A stretch of DNA of 39,991 nucleotides. Source: an uncultured Pseudomonadota bacterium (GTDB taxonomy: Bacteria > Pseudomonadota > Gammaproteobacteria > Burkholderiales > Methylophilaceae). Positions 7,874-24,869 of this stretch are shown piece by piece. Position numbers and translations under genes: made by a program. The stretch covers positions 1 to 39,991 of the forward strand of contig CAIYLB010000006.1 of assembly GCA_903926935.1 (NCBI GenBank), read 5' to 3'. Each line of letters begins with the position of its first letter. Position 1 is the first letter of the stretch. The notes under the pieces are model-generated. The model was given only the letters and a program-made list of their open reading frames with translations. It ran no database searches and was not told the DNA's origin.

Positions 7874-8563
7874 TTATGCAACAACGCCAAATAAACTGCC
7901 AACACCAGCTGTTGCAGCCATTGCTAATGCACCCCAAAAGGCTACACGCGTCATCCCAAGTAACATTCTCGCACCACCTACTTTGGCGGCAATAGCGCCT
8001 AGGCCGGCCAGAAATAATAGTGACATGATGGCCACATAAGGCACTGTTAGCGTAATTGGTGCAAGTAAAACTACCAGTAAAGGTAAGACTGCTCCAATGG
8101 CAAAAGTTGCTGCAGAGGCAAGTGCCGCTTGAATAGGCCGCGCATTAAGCGCCTCAGTAATGCCGAGTTCATCGCGTGCGTGGGCCGATAGCGCATCATG
8201 TGCAGTAAGCTGCAACGCAACTTGACTGGCTAATTCTGGCGTTAGGCCGCGTTCTATGTAAATGTTGGTAAGTTCTAAAAGCTCGTGATCTTGCTCAGTC
8301 TCAAGCTCTAAGCGTTCACGGGCTAAATCTGCATTTTCGGTATCGGACTGCGAACTGACTGAAACATATTCACCTGCGGCCATCGCCATGGTGCCTGAAA
8401 CTAAACCAGCCACCCCAGTTAATAATATAGTGCTATGCGCGGCGTGGGCAGTGGCAATGCCAATAATCAAACTTGAAGTAGAGACTAGGCCGTCGTTAGC
8501 CCCTAGCACCGCTGCACGTAACCAGCCAATGTGGTGTGAACGATGGAATTCAGCATGTTTCAA
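7874..8563 (-). CDS. VIT1/CCC1-family Fe2+/Mn2+ transporter, TTG start
   Basis: Membrane protein of 229 residues of the VIT1/CCC1 family, which moves ferrous iron or manganese. The N-terminus HIGWLRAAVLGANDGLVSTSSLIIG is the family signature. About five membrane segments are visible: two before and three after a charged, Glu-rich cytoplasmic stretch (about 75-140). In plant VIT1 that stretch binds metal. The start is TTG, 9 nt downstream of TAGGACG; the alternative ATG in the same stretch is out of frame. It lies downstream of hppA on the same strand but is separated by a strong terminator. Substrate preference cannot be read from sequence. Confidence 0.92.
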   Translation of the reverse strand: MKHAEFHRSHHIGWLRAAVLGANDGLVSTSSLIIGIATAHAAHSTILLTGVAGLVSGTMAMAAGEYVSVSSQSDTENADLARERLELETEQDHELLELTNIYIERGLTPELASQVALQLTAHDALSAHARDELGITEALNARPIQAALASAATFAIGAVLPLLVVLLAPITLTVPYVAIMSLLFLAGLGAIAAKVGGARMLLGMTRVAFWGALAMAATAGVGSLFGVVA

Positions 8564-12756: not shown

Positions 12757-15489
12757 ATGATATCCACGTTGTTCAAAAAACTATTCGGTAGCCGTAACGA
12801 CAGGCTTGTTAAGCAGTACGCACAAAAAGCGCAAGAGATTAATGCGCTAGAACCAGCAATGCAGGCTTTGTCTGATGAGGCACTTAAAGCAAAAACCGCT
12901 GAGTTTAAACAACGTTATGCCAATGGCGAAACCTTAGATCAGTTATTGCCAGAAGCGTTTGCGGTAGTGCGTGAGGGTGGTAAACGTGCACTTGGCATGC
13001 GTCATTTCGATGTGCAAATGATAGGCGGCATGGTGCTGAATGCTGGGAAAATCGGTGAAATGCGTACCGGCGAAGGTAAAACGCTGGTAGCTACTTTGCC
13101 TGTTTACCTAAATGCGCTGACAGGTAAAGGCGTTCATGTGGTGACAGTGAATGATTATTTAGCTAAACGTGATGCGGAATGGATGGGTAAGCTATACAAT
13201 TTCCTTGGCTTGAGCATCGGCATTAACTTATCTCAAATGCCAACCGATGTAAAACGCCTAGCTTATGCAGCAGACATTACTTACGGTACTAATAACGAAT
13301 ACGGTTTTGATTATCTACGCGACAACATGGTGCATAGCCGTGAAGAGCGCGTACAGCGTGACTTAAGCTATGCGCTCATTGATGAAGTGGATTCTATTTT
13401 AATTGATGAAGCTCGTACACCGCTGATTATTTCTGGCCAAGCAGACGATAGTATTGCGCTATATAACCAAATTAATGCGGTTGCGGCAAAATTAGTCGCA
13501 CAAACTGAAGAAGAAGGAGCAGGCGATTTTTGGGTAGATGAAAAAGGCCAAAATGTTGTGATGTCTGAACAAGGACACGAGCACGCAGAAGATTTGCTGA
13601 CAGAATCTGGCTTGTTACCAGCAGGTTCTAGCTTGTATGAAGCGGCTAATATTACCTTGGTACACCATTTATATGCCTCATTACGTGCGCGCAACTTGTA
13701 TCACAGAGATCAGCATTATGTGGTGCGTGATGGCGAAGTGACGATTGTCGATGAAATCAATGGCCGTATGATGCCGGGACGTCGTTGGTCGGACGGTTTG
13801 CATCAAGCGGTTGAAGCCAAAGAAGGCGTGGAGATTCAAAAGGAAAATCAAACGCTAGCTTCAATTACCTTTCAAAATTACTTCCGCATGTATGCCAAAT
13901 TGTCAGGTATGACAGGTACAGCGGACACTGAAGCTTATGAATTCAATCAAATTTATAATCTAGAAACAGTGGTAATTCCTACGCATCGGGCAATGTTGCG
14001 TAAAGACAATATGGATAAAGTTTACCGTACTGCACAAGAAAAATACGCTGCGGTTATTTTGGATATTAAAGATTGCCAAAGTCGCGGTCAGCCAGTATTG
14101 GTGGGTACAACTTCTATTGAAAATTCAGAGTTAATCTCTAATTTATTGAATGCTGAAAAGCTAGAGCATCAAGTACTTAACGCTAAACAGCATGAGCGTG
14201 AAGCGCATATTATTGCGCAAGCGGGCCGTCCTGGTGTGATTACTATTGCCACTAATATGGCAGGTCGCGGTACTGATATTGTATTAGGTGGTAACCCTGA
14301 ATCAGATATTGACGCGGTAAAAGAAGATGCCAACCTAAGTGCTGCAGAAAAAGATACACGTATTGCGGCCATTAAAGCTGACTGGCAACAACGTCATGAT
14401 GCAGTGTTGGCTGCCGGTGGTTTGCATATTGCGGGCACTGAGCGCCATGAGTCACGTCGAGTCGATAATCAGTTGCGCGGACGTTCTGGTCGCCAAGGCG
14501 ATGCTGGTTCTAGCCGTTTTTATCTTTCTTTGGAAGATCAATTGCTACGAATTTTTGCTTCTGATCGCGTTTCTGCAATTATGGAAAAACTCAATATGCC
14601 AGATGGCGAGGCAATTGAGCATCCATGGGTAACGCGTGCAATTGAAAACGCACAGCGTAAAGTAGAAGGTCGTAACTTTGATATTCGTAAACAATTACTC
14701 GAATATGATGATGTAGCCAACGATCAACGTAAAGTAATCTACGAGCAACGTAATGAGTTGTTAGAAGCGGCCGATATTGGCGATACCATTCGTGCGATGC
14801 GTGAAGACGTGCTGATTAGCATGATTGCTACGCATATTCCACCGAATAGTGTTGAAGAATTATGGGATGTGCCTAGCTTAGAAAGAGAACTTAAGGCGGA
14901 AGCTGGCCTAGAAATTCCACTGCAAAAAATGTTGGAAGATAATCCTGATTTGCATGAAGAAACCCTGCGTGATCGTATTCTAGAAGCCGCAGAAAAAACT
15001 TATATGGCTAAAGAAGAGCAGGCTAGCGCAGATATCATGCGCCAATTTGAACGCTCAGTGATGTTGCAAAGTTTGGATAATCATTGGCGTGAGCATTTGG
15101 CTGCTTTAGACCATTTGCGCCAAGGGATTCATTTACGTTCTTATGCACAAAAAAATCCTAAGCAAGAATATAAGCGTGAAGCTTTTGAGTTGTTTGAGGG
15201 TTTACTCAATTCAGTAAAAAGTGAAGTTACAAAAGTGACTATGCTAGTACAAGTGAAAACTGAAGCCGATGTTGAAGCAGTAGACCGCCCGGTTGAAGTT
15301 GAAAATGTACAATATCAGCACGCTGATTATGATGAAGCTTTAGGCGTTTCTAGTAATGTTGATGAGCAAGGTGTTGCTAGTGATACTGCGCAACCTATCA
15401 TTCGTGAGGGTGTCAAAGTTGGCAGAAATGACCCTTGCCCATGCGGATCAGGCAAAAAATTCAAGCAATGTCATGGTGTTTTAAGTTAA
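12757..15489 (+). CDS. secA: Preprotein translocase motor ATPase SecA
   Basis: ATPase of 910 residues that drives unfolded preproteins through SecYEG at the inner membrane. Walker A is at 100-109 ([10 protein letters not shown]) and the DEVD box at 209-212, followed by [15 protein letters not shown]. The preprotein cross-linking domain is at about 230-370. NBD2 contains [13 protein letters not shown] and GRSGRQGD. The helical wing/scaffold region includes [23 protein letters not shown]. The C-terminal zinc-binding tail has C894, C896, C905 and H906 ([14 protein letters not shown]), used for SecB and ribosome contact. Full length. The upstream 235 bp is AT-rich with no evident small ORF. SecDF and YajC are encoded near the right end. 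Confidence 0.99.
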
Positions 15490-15562
15490 CTTAAGTTTTA
15501 ACTAAATATTTTAACTCACTGTCATTTAACCCATTTACCAAGTTTTTAATCAGTAGAATATT

Positions 15563-15760
15563 ATGTCAGAAAATAGCAGCACTGAAATTCAATCACCTTG
15601 CATTAGTGTTTGTGCGATGGACGATCTAACAGGCTTATGCCAAGGTTGTTATCGCACTATTGATGAAATAAAAGCCTGGTGGGACATGGGCTTAGAAGAA
15701 CAAAAAAACTTGCTAATAGCGCTAGAGGAACGGCAACTGCAGCAAGTGAGTTTTGACTAA
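15563..15760 (+). CDS. DUF1289 small cysteine-rich protein
   Basis: Protein of 65 residues of the DUF1289 family. The core is SPCISVCAMDDLTGLCQGCYRTIDEIKAWWDM, with four cysteines in a C-x3-C-x8-C-x2-C arrangement and the conserved CxGCxRT-x2-EI-x2-W ending. The cysteines suggest a metal or Fe-S site, but the function is not established. It lies 73 bp after secA on the same strand and is convergent with the hvfC-like gene. Confidence 0.88.
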   Translation: MSENSSTEIQSPCISVCAMDDLTGLCQGCYRTIDEIKAWWDMGLEEQKNLLIALEERQLQQVSFD

Positions 15761-15817
15761 TTTAGGCTGTTCTAGCAAGTTTTTAAGTTAGTTTAGACCT
15801 TAATGATCTGCCACTAA

Positions 15818-15845
15818 TAATAAGCGCCTAGTAATAAGTTCCTAG
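15818..15845. repeat. 14-bp tandem duplication spanning the hvfC stop codon
   Basis: Two adjacent 14-bp units, 12 of 14 identical (TAATAAGCGCCTAG and TAATAAGTTCCTAG on the + strand), overlap the last codons and stop of the DUF2063 gene. Confidence 0.6.
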
Positions 15846-16595
15846 TATGATGCCTTGCTCCCGTAAGTCATTCAGTATTTCCAAAGAAAACGGAACTAAA
15901 CTTTCTAAATATGGCTGACTTCTTTCATTCGCTATGATAGTTAGTGCTTGCTCTGCTGTGTAAGTTTGGTTCCGCATTAATTCAATCAAGCTGTACGTCA
16001 CAAGGTTCAGTTCAACAAACTTTACCGTATGTTCAGTATTCCGGTACACCAGAATGTAAGTGTTTACTTTATTTTTAGGTTTATGCTTAGCCGATATTGT
16101 ATGCACGGCATAGTCGTAATTAAGTAATCGCATGCTTGGTGTAAAGGCAGTTCTGCGTGCTAATAAATCACCGCTTGGATTAATTTTCTTAACTTCAGGC
16201 TCGGCAACATCTGTCATGGATGAAACTTGTAGTTCTACACATTCATAATGACAAAGGCTAGCTAGATATGGTGGTAGAAGGTTGGCTTCAATCAAGCTCA
16301 GTTGACTTAAGTAGCTAACAAACTCTTCCGGAATCTGGCGAAATAATGGGCTATTTGCTGCGTGCTCACGCAAGAATCTACGCACCAATGCTAACCAGCC
16401 ACGTTTACCTAAGACTTCTTGTGCAACAGGAAAGCAAGCCGAGACTGACTCAAATAAATTATTGAATACCAGTTCTTTATAAACGCCCATGCGTTTTTTT
16501 GGCACACCTTTGGGGTGTTGCTGCTTCAACGAATCTCTAATATAGGCAGTAAACGCTTGTTGGTAAATTTGAAAGGATGGCGTGTCGATTGTCAT
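15828..16595 (-). CDS. HvfC-like DUF2063 protein, partner of the MNIO enzyme
   Basis: Protein of 255 residues. The N-terminal DUF2063 domain (about 8-105) shows YQQAFTAYIRD, RMGVYKELVFNNLFESVSACFPV and FLREHAANSPLF. The C-terminal domain (about 150-250) is of the kind seen in HvfC/MbnC-like partners. In characterised systems this protein forms a complex with the DUF692 enzyme and presents the precursor peptide for modification. It starts 8 nt after the DUF692 gene stop, so the two are translationally linked. The third position after precursor and enzyme matches the hvfA-hvfB-hvfC order. No hvfD/DoxX-like gene follows. The stop region carries a short tandem duplication. Confidence 0.85.
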   Translation of the reverse strand: MTIDTPSFQIYQQAFTAYIRDSLKQQHPKGVPKKRMGVYKELVFNNLFESVSACFPVAQEVLGKRGWLALVRRFLREHAANSPLFRQIPEEFVSYLSQLSLIEANLLPPYLASLCHYECVELQVSSMTDVAEPEVKKINPSGDLLARRTAFTPSMRLLNYDYAVHTISAKHKPKNKVNTYILVYRNTEHTVKFVELNLVTYSLIELMRNQTYTAEQALTIIANERSQPYLESLVPFSLEILNDLREQGIILGTYY

Positions 16596-16603
16596 GTTGT
16601 TTT

Positions 16604-17521
16604 CTAGACATGTACATCGGCCACATTAGGCATATTGCGACCGTATTGGCTTTGTAAATAGGCAATTTTGTTAACTTCTTGCATCAAGCTAGCTAAGGGT
16701 GGTATGTTGTTATCGCGCTCTAGTAGTGTAGGGAAGCTGCCAAAAAGTTGGTAGGCCTCTTGTAATAATACCCAAACTGGGTCGATAATATCTTCACCAT
16801 GCGTATCTATCAATAAATCTGTGCTTTGCTGATAATGCCCGGCAATGTGGCCATAGGCGATACGTTCAGTAGGAATGCCGCGCAAGAATTCGTGTGCATC
16901 AAAGCCAAAATTTACGCTATTCACATAAATATTATTAAGATCTAAATGTAGCAGACAATCGGCTTCTGCTAAAACTGCCTGAATAAAGGTCAATTCATCC
17001 ATGGTCGAAATCGGTGCCTGAACGTAATATGATGTATTTTCAATAGCAATGCGCTGACCTAATATATCCTGTGTTTGGCGTATGCGCTTTGCTACATAAA
17101 ACACGGCTTCCTCTGTAAATGGTATTGGCAGCAAATCATACAGATAGCCTTGCTGGCCGTTGTAGCCATCGGTGGAGTAGCTTAGATGTTCGGTGTATAG
17201 CGGCACTGCATGTTGCTGCAAGAACTTTTTAACTTGTAGTAAAAAAGCCGTATTAAGCGGCGCTAAACCGCCTAAAGATAAACATAAACCATGACAAACA
17301 ATCGGATAACGTTGTGTAAACCAGTCTAACTGGTGACGCCCTTTACCACCCACATCTAGCCAATTTTCAGGGGCAATTTCAATAAAATTAATATTGGCAA
17401 TTAAATCTTGGCCAAAAGCAGCTTGAATTTGGGGGATTAGCGCACGCTTTAACCCTAGGCCTGCACCTGTAACTATTGCTTGATCTGCAATGTTAGCGTT
17501 GGCATTGTTTAGCAGAATCAT
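16604..17521 (-). CDS. HvfB-like DUF692 multinuclear non-heme iron oxidative enzyme (MNIO)
   Basis: TIM-barrel enzyme of 305 residues of the DUF692/MNIO family, which oxidatively modifies cysteines in ribosomally made peptides. Likely iron ligands are visible: H77 (CHGLCLSLGG), E111-H112 (TEHLSYS), E161-N162 (IENTSYY), H192/D194/N196 (HLDLNN), H225 (GHIAGH), D239/H241/E243 (DTHGED) and E268. The N-terminus (VTGAGLGLKRALIP) and IAPENW are also typical. It sits 40 bp downstream of a secreted Cys-motif peptide gene and just upstream of the DUF2063 partner, forming a three-gene unit. The exact product (oxazolone/thioamide, thiooxazole or other) cannot be read from sequence. Confidence 0.93.
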   Translation of the reverse strand: MILLNNANANIADQAIVTGAGLGLKRALIPQIQAAFGQDLIANINFIEIAPENWLDVGGKGRHQLDWFTQRYPIVCHGLCLSLGGLAPLNTAFLLQVKKFLQQHAVPLYTEHLSYSTDGYNGQQGYLYDLLPIPFTEEAVFYVAKRIRQTQDILGQRIAIENTSYYVQAPISTMDELTFIQAVLAEADCLLHLDLNNIYVNSVNFGFDAHEFLRGIPTERIAYGHIAGHYQQSTDLLIDTHGEDIIDPVWVLLQEAYQLFGSFPTLLERDNNIPPLASLMQEVNKIAYLQSQYGRNMPNVADVHV

Positions 17522-17561
17522 TGCTTAGCTAACTTGCGAACTTCTGTTTAGATTGCCGTGC

Positions 17562-17900
17562 TTATTTTTCCATATCCTTTTTCATTTCAGCACTGCACGC
17601 ACCTTCTTGCATTTTTTCAGCACTACAGGCACCTTCCTTCGATTTTTCGACTGGGGCTTTTACAGCCAATGCTTTTTCTGCGGCTTCTTTTTTTGCCGTG
17701 GCTTTTTTGCTTGCACCACATTTACCCGCACTGCATTGACCCTCTTTCATTTTTGTAGGGGCATTATCCGCAACTTGATAGCCAGTCGATAATGATTTGG
17801 CCGAAAATGGGTTTTCTGTTGCATTAACCGCCGTTGCCGCCATTGATAATGTCAGCGCAGCACTAATCGCTAGAGCTATATTTTTGCTAGTGTCAGTCAT
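17562..17900 (-). CDS. HvfA/bufferin-like secreted Cys-motif precursor peptide
   Basis: Peptide of 112 residues with a signal peptide: short basic start, hydrophobic core about 8-25, probable cleavage after VNA at about residue 27. The mature part is rich in Lys/Ala/Glu and has four cysteines: C56 and C61 in EGQCSAGKCG, C92 in EGACSAEK, C102 in EGACSAEM. EGxC motifs are the known modification sites of MNIO enzymes in HvfA/bufferin peptides. Here the canonical EGKCG is replaced by EG(Q/A)CSA plus one AGKCG. ATG 17900 is chosen because AAAGGA lies 8 nt before it; an upstream in-frame ATG at 17936 lacks this. Role in copper or other metal stress is inference from the family. Confidence 0.88.
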   Translation of the reverse strand: MTDTSKNIALAISAALTLSMAATAVNATENPFSAKSLSTGYQVADNAPTKMKEGQCSAGKCGASKKATAKKEAAEKALAVKAPVEKSKEGACSAEKMQEGACSAEMKKDMEK

Positions 17901-17932
17901 AGGTAGATCCTTTTTTAGAGTTAAAAGTAGTG

Positions 17933-17964
17933 CCAAATAGCGTTAACCAAGTATTACCAAATAG
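17933..17964 (-). promoter_or_regulatory. Direct repeats upstream of the hvfA-like gene, possible operator
   Basis: Two identical octamers (CCAAATAG on the + strand at 17933-17940 and 17957-17964) are spaced 24 bp start to start, with a GTTAAC palindrome between them. They lie 33-64 bp upstream of the precursor ATG. This fits a regulator binding tandem sites, or a -35/-10 pair of an alternative sigma factor. The regulator is unknown. Confidence 0.4.
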
Positions 17965-18016
17965 TATCGTTGAAAATAGCCTTATAATGAAGACCTTTTA
18001 TTTAAATGCGGGCTTA

Positions 18017-18457
18017 TCAATGTTGCCCGATTTTTTGCTTGAGTAAACTCAGGTAGGTTTCTGAATCTAATGCTTGGTTATTATGCTGCGCCTGCCAGAT
18101 GGTTTCAGCTAAGCACTCAAGTATATCGTGCTGGGCTAAATGGCTATCGTTCAATTGTTGTTTCAATTGTTCATAAATCTGCGTGATGCCTATAGGCTGG
18201 TTGATACTGATTTGCTCAATCACTGATAAGTGCAGGCTTAAATGTAAAAATGGATTCGTTTCGCCCATCTCAGGGAAATATTGCTGGTGCACATAACGCG
18301 CTGGCGAATCTAAAATCACATGATATTCAGGGTGCATTTGAATGACTTCAACAGCGATTTTTTCTAAATCGCTTAATGTTGAATGTTGCTTAAATTTAGC
18401 CCAAGCATCAAATAGAAATTGGCGGGCTTGATCGCGGCTAGGCTTATACAAACTCAT
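18017..18457 (-). CDS. DUF1841 protein
   Basis: Protein of 146 residues of the DUF1841 family, common in beta- and gammaproteobacteria and of unknown function. Conserved stretches visible are PSRDQARQFLFDAW, HPEYHVILD, GETNPFLHLSLHLSVIEQISINQP and ILECLAETIWQAQ. The His-rich HLSLHLS segment could bind metal, but no role is known. It begins 66 bp after nth and may be cotranscribed with it. The hvfA-like gene follows 116 bp downstream with its own likely promoter. AAGGG lies about 11 nt before the ATG. Confidence 0.9.
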   Translation of the reverse strand: MSLYKPSRDQARQFLFDAWAKFKQHSTLSDLEKIAVEVIQMHPEYHVILDSPARYVHQQYFPEMGETNPFLHLSLHLSVIEQISINQPIGITQIYEQLKQQLNDSHLAQHDILECLAETIWQAQHNNQALDSETYLSLLKQKIGQH

Positions 18458-19212: not shown

Positions 19213-19233
19213 GGATTAATGATTAATGATTAA
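19213..19233. repeat. 7-bp tandem repeat over the rsxE stop codon
   Basis: Three adjacent heptamers (GGATTAA, TGATTAA, TGATTAA on the + strand) cover the last codons and stop of rsxE (stop at 19223-19225). The first unit has one mismatch. Confidence 0.6.
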
Positions 19234-19906
19234 GTGACGGATTAAGGACTGGTGCTATCGTCTTTGATTTAGCGGTATTTCTACTTTCAATCCAATTTCG
19301 AATTGCGATTAGAGAAGCTAGGCCTAAAAATGCCCCAGGCGGCAATACCGCTAATAGCAAACCATGATAATCAGTACTTACCCACATAAAGGGTGTCGCA
19401 GATGAACCAAAAACTAAATCTAAGCCAGACAGAATAGTGCCTTTTCCCACTAGTTCACGTATAGCACCTAGTAAACCTAGCACCAACATCAGGCCTGAGC
19501 CCATCATAAAGCCATCTAGAATAGAAGGTAAGGAGGTGTTTTTCGCAGCAAATGATTCTACCCGCGCTAGAACGATACAGTTCACTACAATTAATGGAAT
19601 AAAAATACCGAGTACTTTATGTAATTGGTGCGCAAAGGCATTGATAGACATATCAATCACGGTAACTAGGGTGGCGATAACTAAGATAAATACCGGTACG
19701 CGAATTTCGCTAGGTACTAATTTCCGCACTGGTGAAACTGAGCCATTGGCCGCTGCCATCACCAATGCAGTGGCTAAACCAAGGCTTATGCCATTGACCG
19801 CGCTAGTGGTGACTGCCAGCGTCGGGCATAGGCCTAATAGTTGCACCACGCCAGTGTTTTGCTTCCATAAGCCATTTATGGTGATTTCTTTATAGATATT
19901 ATTCAT
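19223..19906 (-). CDS. rsxE: Rsx/Rnf complex subunit E (membrane)
   Basis: Six-helix membrane subunit (227 residues) of the ion-translocating NADH:ferredoxin-type oxidoreductase Rnf/Rsx, paralogous to RsxA. Motifs include NGLWKQNTGVVQLLGLCPTLAVTTSAVNGISLG at the N-terminus (the Cys of GLCP helps hold a membrane Fe-S centre in Rnf/Nqr structures) and FIPLIVVNCIVLARVE. Its ATG overlaps the rsxG stop by 4 bp, showing translational coupling. The C-terminal region is extended by a charged tail (WIESRNTAKSK). Confidence 0.96.
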   Translation of the reverse strand: MNNIYKEITINGLWKQNTGVVQLLGLCPTLAVTTSAVNGISLGLATALVMAAANGSVSPVRKLVPSEIRVPVFILVIATLVTVIDMSINAFAHQLHKVLGIFIPLIVVNCIVLARVESFAAKNTSLPSILDGFMMGSGLMLVLGLLGAIRELVGKGTILSGLDLVFGSSATPFMWVSTDYHGLLLAVLPPGAFLGLASLIAIRNWIESRNTAKSKTIAPVLNPSLNH

Positions 19907-20595
19907 GATTTATCCTTAGGCTTTTGAATTAAGTTAGCCTGTACGCTTGCTGCATTTTCTGGGTTAGAAGAAAGGGATTCTTTGTTCATTGCAAAATACT
20001 GTTCAGCTTTTAAAACTGCTTTGACCACAGCCCGTGGTGTAATGGTTGCGCCCACCATATAATCAAACTTACCACCATCTTTTTTTACTTGCCAATGTTC
20101 GGCGGCTGTTTTGGCTAAAGATTCATCATTAAACAGCCTTATCCACTGACTATGTGCCACGTCAATATAATCACCTAAACCAGGTGTTTCTTTATGGGTT
20201 AATACGCGTACGCCGCTAATAGAACTATCCGCCCGAATCGCAATTAAAAGTTTGATGTCGCCACTATAGCCATCGTGTGCGACCGCTTCTAATATGACGG
20301 CTGCCATTTTATGGTTCAGGATTGCAATATTGGCTTCTGTGGATCGATGATTGCCTAATAATTCGTTAGGGGCAATTTTAATGGTCTGTTTTAACAGATT
20401 ATTATCGTAACTATTTTCTGGCAAAATTTGCTTAAAAAGCGCCAAGCGCGCTTCAGCTTCACTGGCTTCAATCGGTGCGCGGGTAATTTCAAACACATAA
20501 GCGAGTAGGGCTGTACCAAGGAAAGCGAAAGCAATCATAGTGATTGCAGTTTTGGATGTGTGTTTTACCATTGATTCAGATTTGGATTCAGACAT
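19903..20595 (-). CDS. rsxG: Rsx/Rnf complex subunit G (periplasmic flavoprotein)
   Basis: Subunit of 230 residues with one N-terminal membrane anchor (about 16-36) and a periplasmic FMN-binding domain. ETPGLGD (about 136-142) is the usual signature. The covalent FMN site near the C-terminus reads V181-G-A-T184-ITPRAVV. In the flavinylation consensus a Ser or Thr usually precedes GAT, so Val here is unusual, although the acceptor Thr184 is kept. An AAGGA ribosome-binding site precedes the start, 13 bp after rsxD. The stop overlaps the rsxE ATG. Confidence 0.95.
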   Translation of the reverse strand: MSESKSESMVKHTSKTAITMIAFAFLGTALLAYVFEITRAPIEASEAEARLALFKQILPENSYDNNLLKQTIKIAPNELLGNHRSTEANIAILNHKMAAVILEAVAHDGYSGDIKLLIAIRADSSISGVRVLTHKETPGLGDYIDVAHSQWIRLFNDESLAKTAAEHWQVKKDGGKFDYMVGATITPRAVVKAVLKAEQYFAMNKESLSSNPENAASVQANLIQKPKDKS

Positions 20596-20608
20596 GGTCA
20601 GCTAATCC

Positions 20609-21625
20609 TTATTTGTGGCCAAATACACGCGGCTGCGTTAAAGCATCTATTAGCGGTACACACATATTCATTAGTAATACGGCAAAAGCTACACCATCTG
20701 GGTAGCCGCCATATACGCGGATTAAATAAGTAAGTACGCCAACGCCGGCAGCAAAGTAAACTTTTCCTCTTGGTGTCGTCGGGCCACTGACTGGGTCGGT
20801 GATGATGAAAAAGGCACATAACATCGATGCGCCGCTCATTAAGTGGAACAGCGGATTGGCAAAATGGTTAGGCTCAATCGCATAAAAGGCTAAAGAGATG
20901 GTCGCCAAAGAGGCTAAAAAGACTGTAGGTAAATGCCAGCTAATAATGCGCTGTTGTAATAAATACAGGCCGCCGAGTAAATAAGCGCCGGTGACAAGTT
21001 CACCACCTTTAGCACCAAATGCCCCAAAAATAGGCGCTTGCGTGATGCTGGAAACCTCATGTTTCAGCATTAATTGCGTTTTTAGGTAATCCAATGGTGT
21101 GGCCGAAGTAATGGCATCAACTTTAATATCGCCTGGCAAGCTATGGCTAAAAATAAAATGTAACTGATCCATAAAACTAAGTGGATGTTCAGCTAACAAT
21201 AATGGCGCTGGCCATTTCGTCATAATCAATGGAAATGAGATGAGCAATGCTGCGTAGCCAACCATGGCTGGGTTAAATGGATTGTAGCCTAGGCCGCCAT
21301 AAAGCTGTTTGGCGATGACGATGGCAAAGAAGGTGCCCACAATGACTAGCCACCAAGGCGCCAAGGGCGGCAGGGCTAATGCCAATAACCATGCGGTAAC
21401 TACGGCGCTCATATCCATTAAGTAAGGTTTAACTGGGCGCTGACGGATTTTTAGCAATACCGCCTCAGCAGTAAGTGCCGTCAGTGTTGCTAGCGTCAGC
21501 GAAACTAAAATGCCGCCGCCATATATCCACACATAAGCGGCAATGCCAGGCACTAGGGCCAGCAACACTTTAAACATAATAGTGCTAACGGTCGGGGCGT
21601 CGGTAATGTACGGTGAACGGTTCAA
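20609..21625 (-). CDS. rsxD: Rsx/Rnf complex subunit D (membrane flavoprotein), TTG start
   Basis: Membrane subunit of 338 residues, about ten helices, that carries covalent FMN and forms part of the ion path. The FMN attachment motif is T173-S-A-T176-PLDYLKT. YNPFNPAMVGYAALLISFP and ITDPVSGPTTPRGK are typical RnfD segments. The start is TTG, 7 nt after AGGA; no in-frame ATG fits the conserved N-terminus (NRSPYI). A 50-bp spacer with a 14-bp tandem repeat separates it from rsxC. Confidence 0.96.
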   Translation of the reverse strand: MNRSPYITDAPTVSTIMFKVLLALVPGIAAYVWIYGGGILVSLTLATLTALTAEAVLLKIRQRPVKPYLMDMSAVVTAWLLALALPPLAPWWLVIVGTFFAIVIAKQLYGGLGYNPFNPAMVGYAALLISFPLIMTKWPAPLLLAEHPLSFMDQLHFIFSHSLPGDIKVDAITSATPLDYLKTQLMLKHEVSSITQAPIFGAFGAKGGELVTGAYLLGGLYLLQQRIISWHLPTVFLASLATISLAFYAIEPNHFANPLFHLMSGASMLCAFFIITDPVSGPTTPRGKVYFAAGVGVLTYLIRVYGGYPDGVAFAVLLMNMCVPLIDALTQPRVFGHK

Positions 21626-21640
21626 GGGTTTATCCTATTA

Positions 21641-21668
21641 ATATTGTCTTATTCATATCGTCTTATTC
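21641..21668. repeat. 14-bp tandem repeat in the rsxC-rsxD spacer
   Basis: Two adjacent units, ATATTGTCTTATTC and ATATCGTCTTATTC (13 of 14 identical), lie just beyond the rsxC stop and before the rsxD ribosome-binding site. Confidence 0.6.
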
Positions 21669-21675
21669 GTATTGC

Positions 21676-23667
21676 CTAGTCAGACTCTTTACTTTTTGAT
21701 ACTTGCGCCTCAACTGCCAGTTTTGCTTTTTCACGTAGCGCATCTGTTGCATTGATTTCCGCCTGCACTGTCGCGCTTACATTTTCAATATTTTTGGGCG
21801 CATCACCCGCTTGTGCAGCGGCTAGTTTTTGTGCTTTTGCACGTTCAATGGCCGCGGCAATCAGTGCTTGTTTAGCTAGCTTAGCTTTTAATTCAGCGGC
21901 TTCAGTTTCTGGGGTTTTAGCCTCAGTGATTTTAGTCTCAGGAGTTTTAGTCTCAGGTGCAGTTGGCAAAACAGTGACTTTTTCTGCGGAAATATCACTG
22001 GTATTGGCCGCAGCTAATTTCTGCGCTTTAGCCCGGGCAATAGCCGCAGCAATCGCTGCTTGTTTGTCTGTGCTGGCAGGAGCTTCTTCATTTTTAATGC
22101 TTTCAGCGATTACTTCTTTAACATCGTCTACAGGTTTGATTTCAGCAGACTTTACTTCAGATTTAGTGGCTTGAGCGCGTTCAGCATGTTTTTGTGCGCG
22201 CTCTAATTTTTCACGCTCGATACGCGCTAATCTAAAATCATTCCGTTCACGCGCTAAATCTGCCGCTTCTTTGGCTTTATCTACCGCAATAATCTCGCTT
22301 TTTGCATAACGATAATATTGCACTAATGGAATGTCGCTCGGGCATACATACGTACAGCAGCCGCATTCGATACAATCAAACAAATTGTAGTCACGGGCTT
22401 TTTCAAAGTTATCCGACTTTGCAAACCAATACAGTTCCTGCGGCTGCAAATTTACTGGGCAGGCATCAGCACAGCGTGCACAACGAATACACGGCATAGC
22501 CGGTGGAGGAGCTGCAAATAAATCAGGTGTAGCAGCAATAATGCAATTAGCCGCTTTGGTAATTGGCACTAAGTCATTGGGTAAATCAAAGCCCATCATA
22601 GGCCCACCCATAATAAAATGTGTGGTGTTGGTTTTGGCGCCGCCAGCGGCAGCGACTAATGCATGTAATGGCGTACCAAATAACACTTCAAAATTCTGCG
22701 GCACAGCCACATTACCAGTCATGGTTACAATGCGGCTGATAGAAGGTTCGCCAAACTCAAAATAGCGATAAATCGCCAGCACTGTGGCTACGTTAAATAC
22801 TTGAATGCCAACATCGGTTGAGCGTTTGTCATTAGGTATTTCAGTGCCCAGTAATAAATGAATCAGTCTGCGCGCATCTCCGCTAGGGTATAGCGTGGGT
22901 ACTATTTTTACTGCTATGGTCGAGCTTGCCGCCAGCGCTTTAGTCATGATGCCAGCTGCGACTGGTTTGTTATCTTCAATGCCAACGATACATTTTTCTG
23001 CACCTAGCAAAGACTGCACAATTTCTATGCCTTTTAATATCTCATCAGCACGCTCGCGCATCAACATATCATCACAAGTGATGTAAGGCTCGCACTCGGC
23101 AGCGTTAATCACCAAGGTATGTACGTTCGACTTTCCGTTGCTGCGCAGTTTAATGTGCGTTGGAAAAGTAGCGCCACCCAAACCCACAATTCCAGAGGCA
23201 CGCAAAGCATCAACCAACGTTTTTTTATCAGTGTTGCGCCAATCTACAGGCTGTAATGCGGTCCATTGATCTTTATTATCCGGCACTAAGTTGATGCACA
23301 TATCCGGCAAACCTGACGGATGTGGAATGACTTGTTCGCTGATTGCTGTGATTGTGCCTGAGGTCGGTGCATGAATCGCCGCAGAAACAGAGCCTTCTGG
23401 CTCCGCTAACATTTGACCTTTAAGTACGTAGTCACCCACTTGTACTTTTACTTTAGGCATATGTCCAACATGTTGGCGCAAGGGCAAAATCAACTTTTCT
23501 GGCATCATCAATTTGCTGATTGGATGCGTGGTCGATTCTGCTTTATGTTCTGCTGGATGCACGCCGCCGTTGAACTTGAAAATATCTTTCAAGCTGTTAT
23601 TGGCTGTGGCTTTTTTAGAAAATGTATTGCGAATCAAATTACTCGCAAAATTTATAATGTCGCTCAT
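21676..23667 (-). CDS. rsxC: Rsx/Rnf complex subunit C (Fe-S, NADH/FMN-binding)
   Basis: Peripheral cytoplasmic subunit of 663 residues thought to receive electrons from NADH. The N-terminal RnfC domain includes [20 protein letters not shown] and [13 protein letters not shown]. Two 4Fe-4S clusters are at C393/C396/C399/C403 and C432/C435/C438/C442. From about 470 to the end it is a low-complexity charged tail with two near-copies of [18 protein letters not shown] (the second reads [16 protein letters not shown]), separated by PETKTPE-type repeats. Such tails are found in gammaproteobacterial RsxC. ATG 23667 overlaps the rsxB stop by 4 bp. Confidence 0.96.
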
Positions 23668-24257
23668 GCGCTTGTGCTATTTAATGTAGAGGTATTCAAA
23701 CTGAAAGGGACGGCTGTAATTGGAATGATAGGATATTTCCATTTCCAATTATCTGGATTTTCTGCTACAGGCAGCATGGTGATGCAATCCACTGGGCAAG
23801 GCGCAAGGCATAATTCGCAACCGGTACATTCAGAGGCGATAATCGTGTGCATGTGTTTTGCTGCGCCCAAAATTGCATCTACTGGACATGCTTGTATGCA
23901 TAAAGTGCAGCCGATACAAGTCGCTTCATCAATAAATGCCACTGATTTTGGTTTAGGTGTGCCATGTTCTGCGTTGAGCGGTTTGTATTCTACACCCATC
24001 AAATCTGCCAAAGCATGCGCGCCAGCATCTCCACCTGGCGGACATTGATTAATATCCGCTTCGCCCGCGGCAATGGCAGTGGCGTATGGTTTACAGCCGG
24101 GATAGCCACATTGTCCGCACTGCGTTTGTGGCAAGATTGCATCGATACGCGCGATTAACGGGTCGCCCTCAACTTTGAATAGCAAGGCAGAAATACCTAA
24201 TACGAGGCCAAGTGCAAGTGCAAGGCCAAGCATGATGTAAAGTGAAGTTAATAGCAT
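23664..24257 (-). CDS. rsxB: Rsx/Rnf complex subunit B (ferredoxin-like)
   Basis: Fe-S electron carrier subunit of 197 residues with an N-terminal membrane anchor (about 3-28). Next comes the Fer4-like cluster C47-x2-C50-x4-C55-x16-C72 ([11 protein letters not shown]). Two ferredoxin 4Fe-4S motifs follow, C114/C117/C120/C124 and C144/C147/C150/C154, each ending in CPVD. The short tail is hydrophobic. It lies 18 bp after rsxA and overlaps rsxC. Confidence 0.97.
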
Positions 24258-24275
24258 AGCGTTACAATTTAAAAG

Positions 24276-24869
24276 TTAGTATTTATCAAGACCAGCAAAG
24301 CCCATAAACGCTAAACTCATTAGCGCGGCGGTGACCATAGCAATTGCCGAACCTTTAAGCGTGACAGGAATATCCGCCGCTTCAAGTCGCTCACGCATCG
24401 ATGCGAAGAGTATTAGTACCAGTGAAAAGCCAATTGCGCCGCCCATGCCAAATAACAAAGATTCTAGAAAGCTATGGCTGGCTTGTGCATTGAGTAGCGG
24501 AATACCTAATACCGCACAGTTGGTGGTAATTAGCGGTAAAAATATGCCAAGTGATTGATATAATGGTGGAAAGTTCTTTTCCATGACCATTTCAGTAAAC
24601 TGTACTACGCCTGCAATAATGACAATAAATGACAGTGTGCGTAGATATTCCAAGCCGTTCGGCTCAAGTAAATAGTGATTTATACCCCAGCTTGTCATTG
24701 AGCCTATGCTCAACACAAAGGCCGTTGCACCAGCCATGCCGATGGAGGCTTCTAGTTTTTTAGAAACTCCCATGAACGGGCAAAGGCCGAGAATTTTAAC
24801 TAACACGATGTTGTTAACAAACACTGTGCCGATTAAAATCATGATGTAATGATGAAAATCAAAGGTCAT
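24276..24869 (-). CDS. rsxA: Rsx/Rnf complex subunit A (membrane)
   Basis: Six-helix membrane subunit of 197 residues, first gene of rsxABCDGE. The N-terminus [20 protein letters not shown] carries the conserved Cys of GLCP that pairs with RsxE around the membrane Fe-S centre. [24 protein letters not shown] is also typical. In E. coli the complex resets SoxR; in other bacteria Rnf drives reverse electron flow. The sequence does not show which role applies here, and no soxR-like gene is in the window. A perfect 20-bp palindrome lies 31 bp upstream of the start. Confidence 0.97.

Follow-up and report, generated by a model that had tools for sequence, protein, structure and literature searches.

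A Methylophilaceae HvfABC-type operon with a variant cysteine motif, a changed maturase residue and no adjoining sigma factor gene

This study analyzed a predicted hvfA-hvfB-hvfC operon at positions 15828-17900 (-) of a 39,991-nt contig stretch (the window) from the genome, assembled in 247 contigs, of an uncultured bacterium of the family Methylophilaceae, probably a Methylotenera-like methylotroph. The system is a known kind of operon in which the precursor motif, the enzyme residue at site 271, and the regulator have changed. We consider it probable that the operon is of the HvfABC (oxazolin/captophorin) type, that it likely yields a copper-binding peptide carrying 5-thiooxazoles, that its HvfB is relaxed in substrate specificity, and that its regulator has been lost.

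The genes were identified by comparison with profile models. The maturase P0002 passed the 360-bit cut-off of the NCBI HvfB model, matched PF05114 in Pfam with an E value of 1.6e-97, and stayed under the cut-offs of the NCBI models for BufB, MbnB, ChrH, and ApyH. The partner protein P0003 exceeded the cut-off of the NCBI HvfC model (142 bits) and comprises a DUF2063 domain and a C-terminal PF22106 domain. By sequence, the closest solved structures were 3bww_A for P0002 (E 1.2e-71) and 3dee_A for P0003 (E 1.2e-12). All three reading frames are open, and the intergenic gaps are 40 bp (hvfA-hvfB) and 8 bp (hvfB-hvfC). An earlier note on this DNA had described a three-gene hvfA-hvfB-hvfC cluster at this place, and its coordinates and gene order proved right.

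Table 1. Positions of the operon and its features in the window (aa, amino acids)
Feature	Position	Strand	Basis
hvfA-like precursor gene (P0001), 112 aa	17562..17900	-	Open reading frame; NF050188 22.9 bits (cut-off 95)
Putative Sec signal peptide, residues 1-27 (VNA/T)	17820..17900	-	P0001 read by eye
Core Cys pair EGQCSAGKCG (C56, C61), spacing 5	17715..17744	-	Sequence
Repeat EGACSAE (C92)	17616..17636	-	Sequence
Repeat EGACSAE (C102), 10 residues past C92	17586..17606	-	Sequence
hvfB, MNIO/DUF692 maturase (P0002), 305 aa	16604..17521	-	NF003818 388.9 bits, PF05114
Codon of N271, the residue after Asp270 (equivalent of FonB Phe250)	16709..16711	-	Enzyme alignment
hvfC, DUF2063 + NGO1945_C partner (P0003), 255 aa	15828..16595	-	NF050145 238.4 bits, PF09836, PF22106
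116-bp gap between DUF1841 and hvfA; most relatives hold ECF sigma and zf-HC2 anti-sigma genes here	17901..18016	.	Relatives' loci

The cysteines of P0001 stand at positions 56, 61, 92, and 102, in the contexts EGQCSA, AGKCGA, EGACSA, and EGACSA. Cys-Ser-Ala therefore occupies three of the four sites, as the earlier note had read, and the fourth is the canonical GKCG. Repeated EGKCG was not found in P0001, in which GKCG occurs at one site and EGKCG at none. In the window, the repeats differ synonymously at Glu, Cys, and Ala codons, and across the family the codons vary more widely; because the motif holds through these differences, the repeats appear to be maintained at the protein level.

The motif was then followed across the family. 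An enzyme match at E<=0.001 was present in 113 of the 187 Methylophilaceae genomes, paralogues included, and 103 HvfB-type loci were taken, all above 350 bits; a partial 186-aa frame (G106, 247.6 bits) and lower-scoring paralogues were left out. A precursor lay upstream at 102 of these loci, the remaining one (L066) having none since its contig starts there. An HvfC relative was also encoded at all 102 distinct family loci. The motif counts, over 573 sites, refer to the 103 loci before removal of a duplicate (L113 = L114).

The results revealed a graded series of motifs, from pure EGKCG to EGxCSA, EGxCGG, and EGxCH. Cys-Ser occurs at one or more sites in 71 of the 102 family precursors, and 26 have Cys-Gly throughout. 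The residue after Cys (+1) is Gly at 277 sites, Ser at 225, His at 40, Ala at 17, and another residue at 14, and the residue before Cys (-1) is mainly Lys (325), Ser (149), Ala (46), or Asn (26). The first two cysteines are near canonical, with Lys at -1 in 190 and Gly at +1 in 151 of 204 sites, and their spacing is 5 in 90 of the 96 family precursors counted. The 369 later sites vary, with Ser at +1 in 187, Gly in 126, and His in 40, and the commonest spacing of later cysteines is 10 in the family (151 intervals) versus 5 outside it (399 of 894 intervals). In one family precursor (L117), Cys-Cys pairs (DGSCCAG, DGSCCAA) replace the single-Cys repeats. Because Cys-Ser is present in 71 of the 102 precursors, with a conserved core and variable later sites, EGxCSA is, as read from these sequences, a family-wide diversification and neither a singleton nor a lone class. 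A stricter DNA pattern, EGxC followed by Ser, Thr, or a few other residues and then AEK, is narrower than the motif class; among 300 genomes of the order to which the window belongs, of which 9 are from the family, it was found in only two, the window's own genome and one outside the family that reads Cys-Cys.

The earlier note had proposed that the peptide may belong to a precursor class of its own, modified differently or choosing another metal than copper. It is true that the motif departs from EGKCG and falls outside both NCBI HvfA models, and the Cys-His sites (40 of 573) might add metal donors. For P0001, NF050188 remained far below its cut-off, NF050137 (cut-off 19.5) gave no match at E<=1, and DUF2282 was not among the Pfam matches; the failure of both HvfA models counts against our assignment as well. 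The NF050188 cut-off was reached by none of the ten precursors tried, including the canonical outside precursor L136 (53.7 bits). The cut-off of NF050137, the NCBI repeat model, was reached by six of the ten, the canonical one included, but not by L003, L016, L101, or L220, nor, in a separate comparison, by P0001; since this model misses the motif, such peptides can go unnamed. By hhalign, 26 hand-picked family precursors, the window's first, were joined to 25 hand-picked canonical EGKCG precursors at 99.7% (E 3.2e-27, 81 columns covering the leader and the core pair). Of 97 family precursors, 95 match the leader pattern, but a version made slightly laxer is matched by only 70 of 170 outside ones. 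The operon, the enzyme family, and the catalytic residues are all the same as in the canonical systems, motif intermediates occur within one bacterial family, and none of the three neighboring genes scanned is metal related. A separate class with another modification or metal therefore seems very improbable.

We further analyzed the enzyme. The outside loci comprised 89 plus 65 loci, not all of the matches, together with L046-L048 and further loci; L195-L198 were dropped as family repeats. Once 12 loci with duplicated enzyme DNA had been taken out, the alignment comprised 102 family and 197 outside enzymes. Precursors were found by pattern at 97 family and 170 outside loci; 265 loci entered the counts relating Phe to the +1 residue, and 96 + 170 entered the column scan. 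H77, H112, E161, D194, H225, D239, H241, E268, and D270 are each identical in 298 or 299 of the 299 enzymes. We take the first eight to be the iron ligands, which on that assumption are all present in P0002, as the earlier note had stated, and P0002 also retains D270, the position of the base. Near the metal-binding columns, the family shares other changes: Phe205 in 102 of 102 enzymes (mostly His outside), Tyr126 in 98 (mostly His outside), and Cys80 in 81 (mostly Ser outside).

The adjacent residue differs between the family and its relatives. For the related enzyme FonB, sections of PMC12668002 name Asp249 as the likely base, describe a model in which the adjacent Phe250 faces positions 3 and 5 of the substrate, and place Arg15 and Arg16 beside substrate position 1. 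There, Gly at position 5 could be replaced by Ala only, and a Phe at position 3, not accepted by the wild type, was accepted by the F250D mutant; Phe250 and the two arginines are described as conserved in 100 Lys-Cys enzymes (PMC12668002; published version PMC13097082). P0002 lacks this Arg-Arg-Phe set and has Lys25-Arg26 and Asn271 at the corresponding sites. Phe occupies the 271 site in 162 of the 197 outside enzymes versus 1 of the 102 family enzymes. In the family, counted over 103 enzymes including one duplicate, the residue is Ser in 33, Asn in 25, Thr in 23, Ile in 9, Leu in 7, and others in 6, and 101 of the 102 have Lys at the position of FonB Arg15.

The residue after Cys is associated with this change. 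At 854 sites paired with outside Phe enzymes, +1 is Gly in 835, Ala in 13, Ser in 2, and others in 4; at 208 sites paired with outside non-Phe enzymes, it is Gly in 181, Ala in 25, and Ser in 2. A few of the outside sites (with Arg, Pro, or Asp after Cys) derive from long open reading frames or stray matches and not from clear motifs. At 545 sites paired with family non-Phe enzymes, +1 is Gly in 262, Ser in 218, His in 38, Ala in 14, and others in 13. The sole Phe enzyme of the family (L116) has Cys-Gly at five of five sites. By shuffle-corrected mutual information with non-Gly +1 residues, residue 271 ranked first of 271 columns in the family and first of 266 columns outside it, the latter narrowly (0.100 versus 0.099); by z-score for the class that is neither Gly nor Ala, it was again first within the family. 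In another family (f179), non-Gly sites (Cys-Ala or Cys-Ser) accompany five of six Leu enzymes versus none of nine Phe enzymes. An outside locus, L220 (genome G669), combines a Leu enzyme with DAKCAA and DAKCSA repeats, and the five other sampled species of its genus have Phe, which makes the genus a compact set for specificity testing.

Nevertheless, several results weigh against a tight coupling. In the tree, a well-supported branch separates the family enzymes from the rest, and the coupling signal therefore stems mostly from a single old event together with variation inside the family. In tree-corrected independent pairs, Phe loss and non-Gly +1 residues agreed in 4.4 and opposed in 0.3 of 8 pairs (median p 0.125, not significant), and for residues neither Gly nor Ala the values were 2.3 versus 0.1 (median p 0.5, not significant). 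An earlier tree with fewer loci and 6 pairs gave 2.1 versus 0.0 (neither Gly nor Ala) and 3.1 versus 0.2 (non-Gly), neither being significant. The direction favored coupling in these comparisons, short of significance. By z-score for non-Gly residues, site 271 was second within the family; with all rows pooled, it was first or second by mutual information but sixth or eighth by z-score, and the columns above it in the pooled z-score simply mark family membership. Redundancy reduction, in five draws per level, left the in-family rank at 1 in all five at 90% identity, but gave 1, 3, 7, 1, and 2 at 80% and 25, 35, 2, 4, and 5 at 75% (12 to 16 rows); outside the family, the rank fell to 5-8, 9-34, and 20-69 at 90, 80, and 75%. 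Furthermore, of the 16 non-Phe enzymes sampled in family f225, only 1 goes with a non-Gly site, and for 20 of all 30 outside non-Phe enzymes every site is Cys-Gly, which argues that Phe loss permits but does not force a +1 change. Two Phe enzymes (L225 and L284) go with one Cys-Ser each, showing that Phe does not forbid Ser. The view that the raw counts settle the coupling was thus weakened by the tree and redundancy controls, and outside the family the coupling is suggestive.

These limits bear on whether the later repeats are modified. It is possible, though doubtful, that only the core pair (C56/C61) is modified and that the Cys-Ser repeats bind metal through unmodified thiols or are being lost. 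In the family precursors, conservation is highest at the core pair; those of L014 and L022 keep this pair and carry later repeats without Cys, which implies that the later sites are dispensable and counts against our interpretation. In addition, FonBC blocked all position-5 changes tried except Ala, according to sections of PMC12668002. However, the enzyme in those blocking experiments has Phe, and the set of variants described there may or may not include Ser. If only the core were modified, residue 271 should not track the later +1 residue, yet it ranks first in the family by corrected mutual information, within the redundancy limits given above, and the repeats are kept through synonymous codon change. 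We therefore favor modification of the Cys-Ser repeats by a relaxed HvfB.

The third change concerns the regulator, the pair of genes for an extracytoplasmic function (ECF) sigma factor and its anti-sigma factor. At the closest relative (L032, the L003 locus), the gene order is endonuclease III, FIST protein, DUF1841, ECF sigma factor, zf-HC2 anti-sigma factor, hvfA, hvfB, hvfC, DUF1289, and secA. In that genome, hvfC is split into two reading frames (L032:4387-5171), through either a genome frameshift or an assembly error. A same-strand ECF sigma gene lies upstream at 86 of the 102 distinct family loci, that is, at 86 of the 96 usable loci (those showing the gene or having 1450 bp or more ahead of hvfB); for the zf-HC2 anti-sigma gene, the count is 87 family loci. 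The window retains both flanks and lacks the pair. The earlier note had correctly reported that no sigma factor gene and no DoxX/HvfD gene adjoin the operon: neither was present among the three neighbors scanned (DUF1841, an endonuclease-III-type protein, and DUF1289). Compared with its relatives, the absence of the sigma factor at the window locus is, on the evidence of these gene orders, a derived loss and not the family norm. L022 is without a sigma gene, and the upstream DNA of L014 is too short to tell. A promoter scan of 15400-18200 gave 12 sigma-70-like matches versus 6.2 expected, and the nearest same-strand match before hvfA (9 of 12, 18108-18080) lies within DUF1841.

The ten sigma-less loci require approximately eight changes on the tree, and their precursors differ. 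Lys before one of the first two cysteines is lost at 8 of these 10 loci versus 3 of 86 sigma-bearing loci (Fisher 5e-8, not tree-corrected), and the unusual Gln in the window's precursor (EGQC) thus accompanies regulator loss. In seven independent pairs, sigma loss and core-Lys loss agreed in 5.3, opposed in 0.0, and did not differ in 1.7 (median p 0.0625, range 0.03-0.375). In addition, cysteines are fewer (Mann-Whitney p 0.016) and the end branches of the enzymes longer (p 0.013) at sigma-less loci, neither comparison being tree-corrected. All these differences are what a decaying locus would give, in which the operon is losing its function in this lineage after sigma loss. We regard such decay as unlikely, given the three open frames, the intact ligand columns and base, and the same motif style (EGSCSA and EGNCSA) at the sigma-bearing closest relative. 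A functional operon under changed regulation is preferred: with the sigma pair lost, it would probably be read from another promoter, and selection on the core motif may be weaker.

On the basis of these findings and by analogy with studied systems, HvfC would hold or present the secreted precursor HvfA, the iron enzyme HvfB would oxidize HvfA cysteines, most likely to 5-thiooxazoles, and the modified HvfA would bind copper in the periplasm. The family's HvfB would have lost the Phe beside the catalytic Asp, and the later repeats would have changed in step, EGKCG giving way to units that mostly lie at intervals of 10 residues and have Ser, His, or Asn following the Cys. Because the two changes go in step, HvfB here probably accepts Cys-Ser sites that Phe enzymes mostly refuse, a suggestion drawn from the covariation and the published mutants. 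The window's lineage would then have lost the ECF sigma/anti-sigma pair upstream of hvfA, and the core pair would have drifted from [DE]GKC to EGQC. A broader proposal, which we advance only tentatively, is that the family's HvfBs are naturally relaxed MNIOs, in which Phe loss, with the Arg-to-Lys change at the FonB Arg15 site, may allow thiooxazoles at Cys-Ser, Cys-His, and Cys-Asn and thereby copper sites with extra Ser or His donors, the core motif drifting upon repeated, independent loss of the ECF sigma factor.

The window's operon shares with HvfABC/oxazolin of Haemophilus, fontiphorin FonABC, and Microbulbifer mmr an HvfB-family MNIO and the gene order A-B-C. As in these Lys-Cys captophorins, it has an HvfC/PME1 partner with a C-terminal domain, a core Cys pair at spacing 5, and a signal-peptide-like precursor with an NPF...GYxVA leader, which many but not all outside precursors have. 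Unlike theirs, with EGKCG at spacing 5, its later repeats are EGACSA at spacing 10, and its first site is EGQCS; it further differs in its enzyme, with Lys-Arg and Asn at the sites of FonB Arg15-Arg16 and Phe250, and in lacking DoxX (HvfX). The earlier note had quoted an oxazolone/thioamide chemistry for relatives; for oxazolin, the modification has since been reassigned to 5-thiooxazole, as stated in parts of PMC12668002 and PMC13419390. Bufferins (BufA1 or BufA2 with BufBC) likewise combine a secreted Cys-rich precursor with an MNIO and a DUF2063 partner, but P0002 scored 259.9 bits against the BufB cut-off of 310, and the precursor is without a DUF2282 match. Methanobactin MbnABC similarly uses an MNIO on Cys of a copper-binding peptide, but P0002 reached 37.4 bits on the MbnB model (cut-off 325). 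Methanobactin precursors are not known to carry a Sec signal.

Sections of PMC12452194 report a role of bufferins in copper stress and place sigma and anti-sigma genes in Buf1 but not Buf2 clusters; the parts covered here hold no statement on sigma genes of EGKCG clusters. A literature search, in which the variant motif was not used as a term, found no paper treating such a motif or the enzymes of this family, and nothing on this locus for Methylotenera with DUF692 or with copper and methanobactin. "EGAC" is absent from the main texts of PMC12452194, PMC12668002, PMC13419390, and PMC12538549, except for a mutant repeat in PMC12668002, where the four letters fall within a longer string. The motif may nonetheless already be listed, because Table S2 of PMC12452194 is described as holding hundreds of further small precursors.

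DoxX is absent from the operon, and the sole DoxX match in the genome lies on another contig (C211). Among 61 family genomes searched, out of the 103 with an HvfB-type locus, DoxX lies within approximately 2 kb of hvfB in 7 and was not found in 54, where contig ends may hide some; its absence is the usual state in the family. Upstream of DUF1841 and hvfA, six genes at 19223-24869 (-) are followed by the endonuclease-III-type gene on the same strand; the six resemble an rnf electron-transport operon. A VIT-family gene (PF01988) at 7874-8563 (-), by name a putative iron/manganese transporter, lies approximately 7 kb from the operon. The window contains no tRNA and no Rfam match at gathering score, and a single weak match (39% identity, E 2e-3) was obtained when plasmids were searched with the precursor.

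What sets which cysteines an MNIO oxidizes has been addressed, in the parts of the papers covered here, with laboratory mutants of one enzyme. In Methylophilaceae, a whole family has changed both the enzyme residue highlighted in vitro and the substrate residue that it reportedly faces, with graded cases and one apparent reversal. The family thus offers natural enzyme-substrate pairs to test, in effect a natural experiment on substrate choice. A second testable pattern, linking regulation with precursor evolution, is that the ECF sigma pair has been lost repeatedly and that the core Lys erodes along with it.

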